DNA from: Streptomyces roseirectus
GTDB lineage: Bacteria; Actinomycetota; Actinomycetes; Streptomycetales; Streptomycetaceae
Direction: 5' to 3'
Length of the DNA stretch: 64,000 nucleotides
Assembly (NCBI RefSeq): GCF_014489635.1
Contig: NZ_CP060828.1
Coordinates: 8,296,001-8,360,000, forward strand
In this document: positions 37,825 through 44,167 of the stretch, piece after piece
Numbering within the stretch: the stretch's first letter is position 1
Layout of the letters: each line of letters starts with the position of its first letter
Made by a program: the position numbers and the translations under genes
The notes under the pieces: generated by a model
What the model saw: only the letters and a program-made list of their open reading frames with translations
Told to the model about the DNA's origin: nothing
Databases searched by the model: none

Positions 37825-37945
37825 CGATCCGCGCCCGATCGGCTGTGCGCAGAAACCGACTTCACCCGGACACCAGGCGAACTCCCTTGTGCGGAAAGCG
37901 TGCTGGGCCGGTGCGGCACAGCCGCGGTGGGTAGGCTCCGGGGCC

Positions 37946-39070
37946 GTGGTGGAGAAGATCCGTCTCGCGGACGTCGCGCGGGTGCCGACGGACGCGCTGG
38001 TGCCCCTGATCAGTGACAGGTTCGACAACCTGGTCACCGTCGCCGTGGCTGACGCCGTCAGCGGCCGGGTTCCGCAGCGCACGCGCCGGCTGCTGCGCGG
38101 CCCGGAGTGGCGGCAGGACTGGCAGGACGCGCTGCTGTGCGCGGACGGTGAACTCCAGGTCGCTACGGAACGCATGCGCTACAGCGGGGACCGGCGCCTG
38201 GAGACCACCGAGCACCGGCTGCGCAGGGTCCGCGTCCGGCGCAACGAGGCGAGCGTCCTGGTCAAGGAGCTGCGCCGGCACGACTTCCTGGGCAGCGTGG
38301 AGCGCAGGACGGGCGCCGACTCACGGCTCACCGCGCAGGGCTGGCTCAGGATCGCGTTCCCCGAGGAGTACGCCGCCCTGCTCGCGGACGAGCGGGCCCG
38401 GCTCGACGTCGCCGAGGAGGGCGGCGAGCCGTCCTTCCGCGACGTCCACGAACAGATCGAGTACGCCTGCGCCCACGGCACGCTCACCGCACCCCGCACC
38501 CCCGAGGTCGACGCCCTGCTGGCCGCCGCCGACGCCGTCGTCCGCCACGCCGCCGCAGCCGACGCCAAGGACCAGGAGGGCCGCAACGCCGCGCTCCGCC
38601 ACCCGCTGCTCCTCGGGCGCTGGGAGAACGCGCTGCGGGAGCTGGGGCGGATGACGGCGGGGCGGGCCCGCGCCGAGACCCCGCACGCGCTCGGCACCCT
38701 CCCCGCCGACTTCTACGCGCTGCCCCGCCCCGAGGCGACCGGCGTCCTCAACGCCCGCCGCTTCCTCGCCGCCCTTCTCCAGCGGCGCCTGGAGTACAAG
38801 CGGTACGTCCGCCAGCTCACCCAGGTGCTGCGCGAGCGGGCCCGCGAGAACCCGTACGTCGTCGCCGCGGCCGAGGCGAAGACCAACGCCGGCGCGCTCC
38901 TCGCCGCCCGGCACCCGGGGGAGTACGCGTACGTCCTTGCCGCGCTCGCCCCCTACGAGGAGAGCGCGGGCGTGCTGCCGGCCGCCCTGGTCTCCAGCCC
39001 TCGACGGGCCGCGCTGAAACGCGAGGTACTGGCGGCCCTGGCGGACGGAACCTGGACGCCGGCCGACTGA
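37946..39070 (+). CDS. uncharacterised helical protein
   Basis: A 374-residue Arg/Ala/Leu-rich protein with no membrane segment or signal. It begins VVEKIRLADVARVPTDALVP (GTG 37946, or GTG 37949 next to it) and appears entirely alpha-helical, with repeated amphipathic runs such as LLQRRLEYKRYVRQLTQVLR. No catalytic motif is visible. Good codon structure and length support a real gene. It stands alone between the ThiS/MoaD-like operon and the peptide operon. Confidence 0.7.
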   Translation: MVEKIRLADVARVPTDALVPLISDRFDNLVTVAVADAVSGRVPQRTRRLLRGPEWRQDWQDALLCADGELQVATERMRYSGDRRLETTEHRLRRVRVRRNEASVLVKELRRHDFLGSVERRTGADSRLTAQGWLRIAFPEEYAALLADERARLDVAEEGGEPSFRDVHEQIEYACAHGTLTAPRTPEVDALLAAADAVVRHAAAADAKDQEGRNAALRHPLLLGRWENALRELGRMTAGRARAETPHALGTLPADFYALPRPEATGVLNARRFLAALLQRRLEYKRYVRQLTQVLRERARENPYVVAAAEAKTNAGALLAARHPGEYAYVLAALAPYEESAGVLPAALVSSPRRAALKREVLAALADGTWTPAD

Positions 39071-39233: not shown

Positions 39234-39413
39234 ATGGGCATGGAACGCACGTTGCCGACCGAACTGACCGTCCAGGTGGACCACCTGGTGGACGCGCCCG
39301 AGCAGGACGCCGTCTACCGCGACAGCGCCGAATGCGCGGCCCTCCTTCTCGTCGGCGGTCTGCTGCTGCTCTCGCCGCCGACCCCCCGCCCGAAGCTGCC
39401 GGCGAAGAGCTGA
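39234..39413 (+). CDS. 59-residue peptide at the head of a five-gene operon
   Basis: A short gene with AGGAG at 39220-39224 before ATG 39234 (a second ATG is at 39240). The peptide has an acidic N-terminal half (ELTVQVDHLVDAPEQDAVYR), one Cys, and a hydrophobic stretch (AALLLVGGLLLLSPP) before a basic tail PRPKLPAKS. It is followed 11 bases on by a coupled set of enzymes. Such an arrangement is like a ribosomal peptide precursor or a small membrane-anchored partner. A TATAGG -10-like element lies at 39191-39196. I do not recognise a family. Confidence 0.65.
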   Translation: MGMERTLPTELTVQVDHLVDAPEQDAVYRDSAECAALLLVGGLLLLSPPTPRPKLPAKS

Positions 39414-39424
39414 GGGGAGCCGCG

Positions 39425-40102
39425 TTGGCAGAGCAGGCCCAGGAAGCGGTCCCCCTGCACACTGCGGTCGCCGACGCGGCAACCGGGGTCACCCTCGCCC
39501 TGCGCGAGGGTGGCCCTTACGCCGTGTCCCGCGTCCTGCGCCCCGAAGACCCCCTGACCCCGGCCGCCGTCCGCGTGCTGGGCGCCGACACCCTCGTCCC
39601 CTACACGCTGGGCCACGGCCCGGCCGGCGACGACGGGCCCCTCGTCCGGCAGGCGCTGGCCGCCTATCCGCCGACCGCCGGTTCCGCCGTGTCCGCGTGG
39701 AGTCACCACGGGCTCGCGCAGGCCGCGCGCACCCTGCTGCCCGGCCCGTGGCCCGCAGGCGGGGAACCCGACACCGACTGGACCGCGCGCGAAACCTGGC
39801 CGCGCCTCTCCCACCAGGTATCCCAGCTCGCCTCCCTGGCGACGCCCGGACTCGCGCCCGCCCTGGAGGCGCGGCTCGCCGAGCGGACCGTCGACCTGTC
39901 GCGCGGGTTCGTGCGCGCCGTGCGCCGCCGCGACTGGCTCCAGGCCGCCGGGGTCGGACGCTGGCTCGCCCGGCTGCCCGGGGTGCCCGACTCGCTCGGG
40001 CTCGACGCGGGGCTCGTGTTCGTGGCGCACTGGGGCGCGGCCGACCCCCGCGTCGTGCTCCAGGTGGAGGCGGCCCGCCGGCTCTTCGGGACCGGACGGT
40101 GA
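39425..40102 (+). CDS. uncharacterised helical protein of the peptide operon
   Basis: A 225-residue protein starting TTG 39425, with GGGGAG six bases upstream. It is Ala/Leu/Arg-rich and mostly helical, with Trp/His positions (GSAVSAWSHHGLAQAARTLL) but no motif I can name. The stop overlaps the next gene's GTG (GTGA). The longer upstream reading overlaps the 59-residue peptide and lacks a ribosome site, so it was rejected. It may be a binding or scaffold protein for the following paralogues. Confidence 0.65.
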   Translation: MAEQAQEAVPLHTAVADAATGVTLALREGGPYAVSRVLRPEDPLTPAAVRVLGADTLVPYTLGHGPAGDDGPLVRQALAAYPPTAGSAVSAWSHHGLAQAARTLLPGPWPAGGEPDTDWTARETWPRLSHQVSQLASLATPGLAPALEARLAERTVDLSRGFVRAVRRRDWLQAAGVGRWLARLPGVPDSLGLDAGLVFVAHWGAADPRVVLQVEAARRLFGTGR

Positions 40103-41196
40103 CGGCCCGTGCCGACGCCGAGCGGACGGGTACGGCCCGCGCCGCCGCCGACCGGACGGTGACTGCCGGCGCAGCCGATGCCGAGCGGGGGGTGACGGCC
40201 CGCACTACCGACGCCGACCGGACCGTGACCGCCCGCGCCGCCGACGTCGACCGGGTGGCCGAGCGGGCGTTGGGCTGGCTGGCCGCGCACCGCGACGACT
40301 TCCGGCTCCCGCCGGACGCCACGACCGACGCCGACCGCGACCTCACCTGGAAGCCGCTCGGCGAACTCGCCCAGCTCACCCGGCGGATCGCCGCCGGCCA
40401 CCCCCGCGCGGACTTGCGCGCGATCGCCGCCGACCTGTTCGCGTTCGCGTGGGCCGAGACCCGCGAGGGCGCGTTGTTCGCGGAACTCGTCCACCGTGAA
40501 CCCCACGCGACCTACCCGGTCGAGATCTACGGCGTCTTCGCGCAGGCCGGGCTGCGCCACCCGGCCGTCGACGAACTCCTCGGCGCCACCGCCCGGTCGC
40601 GGGCCCGCGCCATCGCCCGCGACACCCCCACCCGCACGCTCGGACTGCTGATCGCCGAGCGGCGCGTCGGGCTCGCCCCGCACGACGACCCCGCCGCCGA
40701 ACTCGCCCGCACCTGGCTCGGGTTGCGCCCGGAACCCTGGGCGCTGGACCGGCGCACGGCGTACGGGCTCACCCACGACGTCTTCCACGTCACCGACTGG
40801 GGCGCCGACCGGTCCGCCCTCCCCGCCGACGCCGCCGGCTACCTCCGGCTGTGGCTGCCGGCCTGGCTGGACGGGTGGCTCACGGAGGGCGAGTGGGACC
40901 TCGTCGCCGAACTCCTCGCCGTCGGCGCCTGCTTGCCGGACGGCGGCGGACACGAGGGATACGACACCGCCTGGGCGCGGCTCGCCGAGGCCCAGTCGGC
41001 GGACGGCGCGGTGCCCGAGCACGAGAACTTTCCCCGGGACTCCTTCCGGGCCTGCTACCACTCGACGCTGGCCACGGCGTTCGCGGCGACGCTGGCGCGC
41101 GAGGCGGCCGACGCGCGGGACGACGCCGAGGCCCGCGACGACGACCTTGATGCCCCCGACGCCCCTGGCGCCCTTCTGGGAAGGACCACCGCGTGA
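40099..41196 (+). CDS. uncharacterised alpha-helical protein, first of two tandem paralogues, with N-terminal repeats
   Basis: A 365-residue protein. Residues 1 to about 52 are five imperfect 10-11-residue repeats of the type RTVTARAADAD. From about 53 the sequence parallels the next gene: RVAERALGWLAAHRDDFRLP against RVGERALDWLDTNRDRFRIT; YGLTHDVFHVTDWG against YDITHTVFHVTNWG; WDLVAELLAVGACLP against WDLLGELLVVDACLP. The conserved His, Asp/Asn, Trp and Cys suggest an active site in a helical, possibly toroidal fold. The GTG start overlaps the previous stop. I cannot name the family with confidence (DUF6895-like is a guess). Confidence 0.7.
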   Translation: MTARADAERTGTARAAADRTVTAGAADAERGVTARTTDADRTVTARAADVDRVAERALGWLAAHRDDFRLPPDATTDADRDLTWKPLGELAQLTRRIAAGHPRADLRAIAADLFAFAWAETREGALFAELVHREPHATYPVEIYGVFAQAGLRHPAVDELLGATARSRARAIARDTPTRTLGLLIAERRVGLAPHDDPAAELARTWLGLRPEPWALDRRTAYGLTHDVFHVTDWGADRSALPADAAGYLRLWLPAWLDGWLTEGEWDLVAELLAVGACLPDGGGHEGYDTAWARLAEAQSADGAVPEHENFPRDSFRACYHSTLATAFAATLAREAADARDDAEARDDDLDAPDAPGALLGRTTA

Positions 41197-42110
41197 TGAC
41201 CGTGACGGCAGCCTCGCCGGCCCTGCTGCACCGGGTCGGGGAGCGGGCGCTCGACTGGCTCGACACCAACCGGGACCGCTTCCGGATCACCCCGGAGGAC
41301 CACGCGTCGGGGCTGGCGCTGGGGGAGCGGCTGAAGCCCGTCGGCGAACTCGCCGTCAACACCCGCGTGTTGTTCCGCGAGGGCGTCGCCGGGTCGCGGC
41401 AGCGGGAGCGGGCCGGGGCCCTGCTCGACTTCGCGTGGCGTGAACTCCTCGACGGCGGCGGGGTGTTGGCGGCCCTCCAGGCGCAGGAGCCGCACACACC
41501 GGTCGCGCTGGAGGTGTACGTGCCCTTCCACGAGAGCGGGTACCGGCACCCCGGCCTGGAGGAGATGATCGCCGTCTCGCGCCGCACCCGCAGCTGGGCC
41601 GCCGTCGAGAAGCCCCCCAACCGGCAGCTCGCCCTGCTCAGCGCCGAGCGGCGGATCGGGGTGAGACCGAGCGCGAGCTTCGACGAGACGCTGCGCCGCA
41701 CCTGGCTGGGACAGCTCCCCGAACCCTGGACCGTGCAACTGCACATCGCCTACGACATCACCCACACCGTCTTCCACGTCACCAACTGGGGCGAGCGACC
41801 GGACGCGCTCCCGGCCGACATCGCCGACTACCTCGACCGCTACCTCCCGGCGTGGCTGGAGACCTGGGCCGACCTCGAACACTGGGACCTGCTCGGGGAA
41901 CTCCTCGTCGTCGACGCCTGTCTGCCCCGCCCCGCGCTGGACGCCGAGATCTGGGAGCGGTACGCGGGCGCGCAGGCGCCGTCCGGGGCGATGCCGGTGC
42001 ACGGCGCGATGCCCGAGGGCGACCCCGGCGACGTCTTCGACCTCCTCCACCACCCCACGCTGGTCGCCGCGTTCGCCTCCGCGATGGCCACCTCACGGGC
42101 GCTCGGCTGA
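41193..42110 (+). CDS. uncharacterised alpha-helical protein, second tandem paralogue
   Basis: A 305-residue protein homologous to the preceding gene over almost its full length but without the N-terminal repeats. The shared motifs are THTVFHVTNWG (about 190-200) and LLGELLVVDACL near 230, with HHPTLVAAF matching YHSTLATAF near the C-terminus. GTG 41193 or ATG 41196 starts it, overlapping the upstream stop. Duplication within one operon implies a heteromeric complex or two sequential steps. No cofactor motif is recognisable. Confidence 0.7.
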   Translation: MMTVTAASPALLHRVGERALDWLDTNRDRFRITPEDHASGLALGERLKPVGELAVNTRVLFREGVAGSRQRERAGALLDFAWRELLDGGGVLAALQAQEPHTPVALEVYVPFHESGYRHPGLEEMIAVSRRTRSWAAVEKPPNRQLALLSAERRIGVRPSASFDETLRRTWLGQLPEPWTVQLHIAYDITHTVFHVTNWGERPDALPADIADYLDRYLPAWLETWADLEHWDLLGELLVVDACLPRPALDAEIWERYAGAQAPSGAMPVHGAMPEGDPGDVFDLLHHPTLVAAFASAMATSRALG

Positions 42111-43114
42111 TGCCCCCCGACGCCCGCCTCGACGAGGCGCTGCGGATGATCGACGCGCCCGACGCCGTCGTCGGCGTCTCCCGGCACGGGCGACGGACGC
42201 TCGCCGGCGCGGACGGCCGGGTGCGGGCGCTGCGGTACGAACTCGGGTCGCTGACCAAGACGTTCACGGTGCTGCTCGCCGCGCGGCTCGCGCAGGACGG
42301 GGTGCTCGGGCTCGACGACCCGCTCAGCGCGCACCTGCCCGTACGGGCGACCCCGATCACCCTGCGCCACCTCGCGACGCACACCTCGGGCCTGCCCAGG
42401 GTGCCGTACGACCTGCTGCCGGGGGCGCTGCTGCACCCCCGGCGCAACCCGTACACCGGGTACGGCACCGGACGGCTGCTCGCCGCGTTCTCCCGGGCCC
42501 GCCCCCGGCACGCGCCCGGCACCCGCTGGAACTACTCCAACTTCGGCGTCTCCCTCCTCGGCCTGGCGCTCAGCCGGACGACCGGGACGCCGTACGCGCG
42601 GCTCCTCGACGAGCGGGTGCTGACCCCGCTGGGGCTGACCCGGACCAGCGCGACCCCCGCCCCCACGGACGCCGTCGGGCACCGCAAGGACGGCACGACG
42701 CGGGTGCCGTGCACCTCGATGGGGGCGTTCGCGCCGGCCGCGTCGGTACGGGCCACGCCGGGCGACCTCCTGACCTACACCGAGGCCCACCTCGCCCCGT
42801 CCGGCCCGCTCGCCGACGCGCTGCGCCGGGTCGTCGTCCCGCAGCTGCGGCGCGGCCGGCACGGGGAGGGGCACACGCTGACCTGGTTCGTGCACGAGAC
42901 ACCGCGAGGGCCGCTGCTCTTCCACAGCGGGGCGACGTTCGGGCAGCAGGCGTTCGCCGGGTTCCACCCCGCGTCGGGGACGGCCGTCGTCGCCGTCGCC
43001 AACCGGCACCACCGGGGGTGCCGGCTCGTTCCCGTCGCGCACGACCTGCTGTACGGGCTGGCCACACAGGCGCCGGGGCGCGAGGAGCCGGTGGCGCTCG
43101 GGACGGGGTGGTGA
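42110..43114 (+). CDS. serine beta-lactamase-like hydrolase/peptidase
   Basis: A 334-residue protein of the class C beta-lactamase/DD-peptidase superfamily. The nucleophile motif is SLTK (about residue 47, SxxK), the second motif YSN (YxN) lies in WNYSNFGVSLLG, and the third motif is HSGAT (HxG). There is no signal peptide or lipobox, so unlike true beta-lactamases it should be cytoplasmic. Its ATG overlaps the previous stop (TGATG). As the last gene of the peptide operon it is a candidate amide hydrolase or peptidase for the 59-residue product. Confidence 0.85.
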   Translation: MPPDARLDEALRMIDAPDAVVGVSRHGRRTLAGADGRVRALRYELGSLTKTFTVLLAARLAQDGVLGLDDPLSAHLPVRATPITLRHLATHTSGLPRVPYDLLPGALLHPRRNPYTGYGTGRLLAAFSRARPRHAPGTRWNYSNFGVSLLGLALSRTTGTPYARLLDERVLTPLGLTRTSATPAPTDAVGHRKDGTTRVPCTSMGAFAPAASVRATPGDLLTYTEAHLAPSGPLADALRRVVVPQLRRGRHGEGHTLTWFVHETPRGPLLFHSGATFGQQAFAGFHPASGTAVVAVANRHHRGCRLVPVAHDLLYGLATQAPGREEPVALGTGW

Positions 43115-43346: not shown

Positions 43347-43459
43347 CGACAACCGCCCCTCCCGGCCGGACCCTTGGGCGCGCATCGTGCGTGCGCGCCC
43401 TGCACACCCGGTCGAGGACCGCTGGAAACACGTGTGCGCGACGCGGGGGAGCGCCGGTG

Positions 43460-44167
43460 ATGATGCGGGGCATGCGCAGCCTGTTCCCGCACCACACCTG
43501 GACCCCCGTCACCGAGGGCGAGTCCGGCGCCGACGTCTTCCGCCTCACCGGAGCCGGCCCCACCCTCTACGCCAAGACCGGCCCCGAGGTCCCCGAGGAG
43601 ACCGAGCGCCTGCGCTGGCTCACCGGCACCGGGATCCCCGTCCCGGCGATCGTCGCGAGCGACGAGCGTTGGCTGGTCACCGAGGCCGTCGAGGGCGTGC
43701 CCGCGGACGACGCCCCGGAAGCCCTCGCCGACCTCGCCCGCGCCCTGCACGCGCTCCCCGCCGCGACCTGCCCCTTCGACCGGCGGCTCGACACCACGAC
43801 GGACGAGGCGCGCCGCCGCGTCCGGGACGGGCTGGTACGGCTCGACGACCTGGAGGAGGAGTACACGGGCTGGTCCGGGGAACGCCTGCTCGCCGAACTG
43901 GAGCGGACCCGGCCGGTGGTGGAGGACCTGGTGGTCTGTCACGGCGACCTGTGCCCCGACAACGTCCTCGTCGACCCGAGGACGGGCCGGGTGAGCGGGG
44001 TGATCGACGTCGGGCGGCTCGGGGTCGCCGACCGCCACGCCGATCTCGCGCTCGTCCTGCGGGAGTTGACCGGCGGGCGCGGGTGGCGGTTCCTGGAGGC
44101 GTACGGGGCGGGGCGCGTCGACGAGGAGCGGCTGGCGTACTACGTGCTGCTGGACGAGTTCTTCTGA
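43460..44167 (+). CDS. aminoglycoside phosphotransferase-like kinase, APH(3') type
   Basis: A 235-residue kinase of the APH family. The catalytic loop VVCHGDLCPDNVLVD (HGDxxxxN) and the magnesium motif GVIDVGRLGVADRHADLALV are typical of APH(3') enzymes. It is somewhat shorter than the 260-residue resistance enzymes; the N-terminal nucleotide loop is ESGADVFRL. GGGGGAG precedes the GTG/ATG cluster at 43457-43463. It could phosphorylate an aminoglycoside or another small molecule. Confidence 0.85.
   Translation: MMRGMRSLFPHHTWTPVTEGESGADVFRLTGAGPTLYAKTGPEVPEETERLRWLTGTGIPVPAIVASDERWLVTEAVEGVPADDAPEALADLARALHALPAATCPFDRRLDTTTDEARRRVRDGLVRLDDLEEEYTGWSGERLLAELERTRPVVEDLVVCHGDLCPDNVLVDPRTGRVSGVIDVGRLGVADRHADLALVLRELTGGRGWRFLEAYGAGRVDEERLAYYVLLDEFF

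Follow-up and report, generated by a model that had tools for sequence, protein, structure and literature searches.

What does a Streptomyces operon produce when a gene for a 59-residue peptide is followed by four genes that almost touch one another? The locus occupies positions 39234-43114 on the forward strand of a 64,000-nucleotide stretch of the Streptomyces roseirectus genome (hereafter the window). The sequence-only reading had described five close-packed genes there and proposed either a ribosomal-peptide pathway, with a precursor, modifying enzymes and a peptidase, or a small membrane-signalling system. All five genes were confirmed: a peptide, a helical protein, two DUF6895 paralogues and an S12 hydrolase. 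As argued below, the operon looks like an undescribed and common pathway for a modified peptide.

The peptide gene (39234..39413, stop codon included) starts at an ATG that has an AGGAG nine bases upstream, in agreement with the good ribosome site ascribed to it earlier. After a spacing of 11 bases comes the gene for a 225-residue protein (39425..40102), with a GGGGAG upstream of its TTG start and an earlier in-frame ATG at 39332. The remaining junctions overlap by 1 to 4 bases. DUF6895 copy 1 (40099..41196, GTG start) overlaps the stop of the helical gene by 4 bases, copy 2 (41193..42110, starting at GTG 41193 or ATG 41196) overlaps copy 1 by 4 bases, and the hydrolase gene (42110..43114, ATG start) overlaps the end of copy 2 by a single base. 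A Pfam search assigned both paralogues to PF21836 (280.1 and 286.6 bits for copies 1 and 2, cut-off 23.8) and the hydrolase to PF00144 (178.6 bits, cut-off 27). A 33-bp tandem repeat of 5.2 copies (40090..40254) encodes an 11-residue repeat that makes up an N-terminal extension of copy 1; since roughly the first 52 residues derive from this repeat, the true start of copy 1 may lie later, at 40225 or 40255. The genome, a single contig of 9.95 Mb, contains two DUF6895 matches, and a single copy of the peptide was found in it. Directly upstream of the operon lies a gene for a 393-residue protein of no Pfam or NCBIfam family (37889-39070), and just downstream lies an aminoglycoside phosphotransferase-type gene (43391-44167; NCBIfam APH(3'), 247.7 bits against a cut-off of 205).

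Related loci were fetched through DUF6895 and not through the peptide, from 79 genome stretches and from 80 named loci, the latter being the best 80 of 426 stretches encoding a relative, a choice that favours sequences close to copy 2. A locus was counted as paired if it contained two DUF6895 copies with matches longer than 650 bases each; this gave 142 rows including the window and 127 distinct loci. Among these, the peptide and the helical gene were present in 127/127 and the hydrolase in 125/127, in one gene order. The association goes beyond chance, given that loci picked by DUF6895 still had the peptide upstream in every case; the earlier expectation of a small gene ahead of each paralogue pair was borne out. 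The two hydrolase exceptions are L220, where the sequence ends 49 bases past copy 2, and L229 from Saccharopolyspora, where no S12 gene was found in the 4009 bases after copy 2. Two further paired loci also have peptide, helical gene and hydrolase, one of them repeating a locus already counted, so that the distinct total is 128. Within the best 80 of 426, peptide and helical gene occurred in 79/80 and the hydrolase in 77/80. Single-copy and distant loci were kept outside the paired count, as were five with fewer than two full-length copies, of which three have the peptide (L037, L116 and L209) and two lack it (L051 and L206). In the last of these, from Actinacidiphila acididurans, an orphan copy-2-like DUF6895 gene (L206:4001-4909) stands with no peptide, helical gene or hydrolase within 8.9 kb.

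The 79 named loci with the peptide and the helical gene came from Streptomyces, Actinacidiphila, Streptantibioticus, Saccharopolyspora, Actinokineospora and Actinophytocola. When 20 neighbourhoods were clustered, using rough gene calls and partly identified flanks, no flanking gene family appeared in more than six, which indicates that the cassette is retained as its surroundings vary. In these neighbourhoods no exporter, regulator or immunity gene came up repeatedly beside the cassette, and nothing was found that favours the membrane-signalling alternative.

The peptide of the window belongs to a kind (type I) whose leader-like half is followed by an aliphatic run and then by an almost invariant SPPTPRPK tail, which in the window reads SPPTPRPKLPAKS. 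The tail motif was found in 147/148 type I peptides, 108 of them distinct, and 48 end exactly in SPPTPRPKKG. Of the 108 distinct tails, 100 have Ser right before the first Pro and the other eight have Ala, with Leu two positions before this Ser or Ala in 104. Two loci have tandem pairs of peptide genes: L223, and the one recorded both as L040 and as L219. In one locus (L105:3065-3949) a peptide with an altered tail runs in frame into the helical gene, either through a sequencing error or as a fusion. Over 1156 pairs at least 55% identical, drawn from 56 distinct peptides ending in PRPKKG, pN/pS was 0.37 (mean pN 0.155, mean pS 0.418), so that the peptide is under selection as a protein. Against its nearest two relatives the window peptide gave a pS of 0.194, with pN of 0.084 (L167) and 0.077 (L168); the comparison with L192 (pN 0.606, pS 0.535) is ungapped, with an unchecked peptide alignment, and was given no weight.

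The sequence-only reading had looked for a variable core, and here the type I peptides went the other way: variation falls chiefly in the N-terminus and in a short spacer, and no part of the molecule is better conserved than the tail. Most RiPP cores are not nearly invariant. The constancy of the tail is easier to reconcile with a signal held in common, or with a structural peptide, than with an antibiotic that diversifies in an arms race. Note however that tails differ between types of peptide. At 16 distinct loci the helical gene, a single DUF6895 gene and the hydrolase occur with no match to the type I profile, and in 16/16 a divergent peptide occupies the equivalent upstream site. Type II peptides (12 loci) have a Leu-rich run followed by a SPKEPKEPK-like tail, and type III peptides (4 loci) an Ala/Leu-rich run and a longer tail. 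These reading frames were first spotted by eye and then tested with leave-one-out profiles, in which they ranked first in 16/16 loci among 128-333 ORFs each (E 3.7e-11 to 3.6e-29). The type III peptides (L114, L147, L149 and L150) have an extra conserved C-terminal stretch past the aliphatic run, possibly another core or a follower.

The distinct peptide kinds at single-copy loci mean that the type of tail and the number of DUF6895 copies are correlated. This tie may go back to a single old event, for the copy 2 sequences form one clade (support 0.98) that comprises 36 copy 2 sequences and a single L209 sequence (the other L209 copy is split). A conserved, small precursor-like gene is thus found beside candidate tailoring enzymes in both settings, and we consider it probable that the pathway is centred on the peptide, on which its neighbours would act. 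A different possibility is that the peptide stays unmodified and serves as a small subunit or regulator of a helical-DUF6895-hydrolase complex acting on a cell-wall peptide or small molecule. Cell-wall peptides are frequent substrates of S12 enzymes, a nearly invariant tail is what a binding motif would look like, and the lack of a recurring exporter in the 20 neighbourhoods suits such a role; however, the tail class tracks DUF6895 copy number, possibly through that one old event, extra tandem copies of the peptide exist, and a title cited below assigns a RiPP role to another DUF6895 protein. We regard this alternative as unlikely.

The enzymes that would carry out the modification are less familiar. 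Searches of Pfam and NCBIfam profiles placed the helical protein in no family; its predicted structure is all-helical (pLDDT 95.0), and among the 120 matches listed from 815 relatives all were hypothetical or uncharacterised except for one UniRef name, acyl-CoA dehydrogenase. The two paralogues contain both motifs that had been reported for them (THxVFHVTxWG and ELLxVxACL), and the statement that these match no enzyme must be amended in that the proteins match a named family, DUF6895. Residues T190, H191, D232, E236 and H287 are kept in both copies. At position 195, where the cassette enzymes have His, 8/8 non-redundant distant members have Tyr. The model of copy 2 is confidently all-helical and toroid-like (pLDDT 95.9), which agrees with the toroid anticipated earlier, and DUF6895 is accordingly described here as a predicted alpha/alpha toroid. 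The match to toroid folds is only modestly above the level that helical models reach without true relatives.

The toroids matched in the fold search have many chemistries and include terpene cyclases, GH105/GH88, cellobiose 2-epimerase and AprG. This breadth bears on a second alternative, in which the system is RiPP-like but DUF6895 performs some other reaction, for example cyclisation or ester or amide formation at the Ser that precedes the prolines, with the S12 enzyme being of an acyl-transferring or esterase type. The position of that Ser in most type I tails, and its place shortly ahead of a Pro in types II and III as well, would suit such chemistry, although its replacement by Ala in 8/108 type I tails does not. 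Cys-based chemistry is also unlikely, since Cys is missing from the 12 type II peptides, given the start codons chosen, and from some type I peptides (L081 and L082). Furthermore, in the literature covered, the sole function named for DUF6895 is epimerisation: one such protein is called a lasso-peptide epimerase in the title of Shi et al. (ACS Catal 2026, doi 10.1021/acscatal.5c08590), as cited in PMC13352647. Another DUF6895 chemistry is possible, if doubtful.

Counts of PF21836 above cut-off, distant subfamilies included, show how widespread the family is: 168/392 genomes of the genus, 32/394 genomes of a draw from the class (12/137 genera) and 6/396 genomes of a draw from the phylum, every one of the six in the genus. 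This commonness, together with the fact that none of the five proteins matched a PADLOC anti-phage family at E 0.01, makes it very improbable that the operon is a toxin or defence module of a short hydrophobic peptide and accessory proteins, even though a hydrophobic run and a basic tail in a short peptide would suit one. The peptide, helical and hydrolase profiles had no match at ten distant places, which comprise 11 loci since L050 and L166 are identical in position, and the result was the same for two loci with short matches, L162 and L164. One to three neighbours were scanned at 7/10 of the distant places, revealing a RiPP hallmark in one and a P450 in another. In the first (L166:4346-8513) the DUF6895 gene lies near LanC-like and ABC transporter genes, which may represent a lanthipeptide cluster that includes a DUF6895 enzyme; in the second (L157:6567-8748) it directly adjoins a cytochrome P450 gene.

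The last gene encodes a 334-residue protein that, as had been read from the sequence, is a beta-lactamase-fold hydrolase, of the S12 class C beta-lactamase type. It carries the SxxK and YxN motifs of S12 enzymes, the latter as YSN, as well as HSG. Across 26 aligned hydrolase sequences S47, K50, Y142, H272 and G274 are invariant and N144 is present in at least 90%, and the best matches among solved structures are AmpC-type beta-lactamases. ClbP, an S12 enzyme, is described in PMC9889268 as a D-amino peptidase in natural-product maturation, and it resembles the enzyme proposed here in that ClbP and other S12 D-amino peptidases cut next to a D-residue. It differs in being a membrane enzyme, and D-Asn prodrug peptidases have S/T at ClbP position 188, two residues after the catalytic Tyr, where the window hydrolase has Asn; the homologues listed in that source lie in nonribosomal pathways (PMC9889268). 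A word search of a review of RiPP leader proteases (PMC10885120) found no S12, lactamase or penicillin, which suggests, without proving, that an S12 peptidase within a RiPP pathway would be new.

How does the operon compare with known epimerising systems? The DUF6895 protein of Shi et al. shares the family name but, by its title, serves a lasso peptide, whereas the operon has a doubled DUF6895 with S12 and helical partners. The operon was not classed as a lasso-peptide cluster, there being no PF13471 B2 leader peptidase near it; the only PF13471 match in the genome is at 3.68 Mb, 4.65 Mb away from the window (8.30-8.36 Mb). A lanthipeptide cluster was likewise rejected, with no Lan Pfam family in the five genes and no Cys in the type II peptides with the starts chosen. 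Another point of comparison is the epeXEPAB operon of Bacillus subtilis, whose epimerase EpeE we take to be YydG. This operon also combines a small precursor, an epimerase and a protease (PMC12871923), but its epimerase YydG is a radical-SAM enzyme (PMC10406935) and its protease EpeP an M50 intramembrane protease (PMC10885120); Pfam placed none of the five genes in a radical-SAM or M50 family. The MslH epimerase of the lasso peptide MS-271 resembles the proposed enzymes in that it acts on a ribosomal peptide without radical SAM, by acid/base chemistry with two His/Asp dyads, yet its fold is calcineurin-like, with Ca(II) (PMC10406935), and DUF6895 is predicted to be all-helical.

We propose a stand-alone RiPP pathway in which residues within the peptide are epimerised by DUF6895 and the resulting D-residue is where the S12 enzyme cuts, a chain put forward as the simplest one that uses all five genes and to which we give an even chance as a whole. 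The 59-residue peptide would be the precursor, with conservation suggesting a leader of about 35 N-terminal residues followed by the aliphatic run and the proline/basic tail. The helical protein would present the precursor or hold the enzymes together. Acting in or beside the aliphatic run, the two DUF6895 toroids would convert L-residues to D-residues by inversion at the alpha-carbon, with His191, His287, Asp232 and Glu236 as possible groups for acid/base chemistry. The S12 hydrolase would then cut at the new D-residue and free an SPPTPRPK-type product. The putative epimerase role leans on one cited title. By our own estimates support drops stepwise along this chain, from the peptide-centred pathway to epimerisation, which we hold to be at or slightly above an even chance, and to D-specific release, which falls somewhat short of that.

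For the RiPP reading we count the tandem peptide genes, the LanC-like/ABC setting of the distant gene, the five kept DUF6895 residues and the intact S12 motifs. Against it we count Tyr at H195 in distant members, the lack of a recurring exporter, regulator or immunity gene, the invariant tail, YxN in place of S/T, the absence of an S12 gene at L229, the single RiPP hallmark in seven distant places and the modest fold match. The earlier proposal of a ribosomal-peptide pathway thus stands with respect to the conserved small gene, the predicted toroid and the relative titled a lasso-peptide epimerase, but not with respect to a variable core.

If correct, the proposed pathway would define a separate RiPP class, in which a precursor is accompanied by a helical partner, by DUF6895 toroids and by an S12 hydrolase. 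It would add another fold to the peptide epimerases, provide for peptide epimerisation without a radical-SAM or metallophosphatase-type epimerase, and reveal a stereochemical trigger for peptide release. A large proportion of Streptomyces genomes contain DUF6895, yet in the database rows seen the peptide, the helical protein and DUF6895 were named 'hypothetical', 'uncharacterised' or 'DUF6895', bar the one UniRef name. In its most specific and tentative form, which we think rather doubtful, stand-alone toroid epimerases would write one or more D-residues into the conserved leucine-rich stretch and a cytoplasmic S12 enzyme would read the D-residue as the sign to cleave, the change in stereochemistry by itself permitting the release of a near-invariant SPPTPRPK signal shared across many Streptomyces species. 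A near-invariant peptide common to so many species makes the idea of a conserved Streptomyces peptide signal directly testable.
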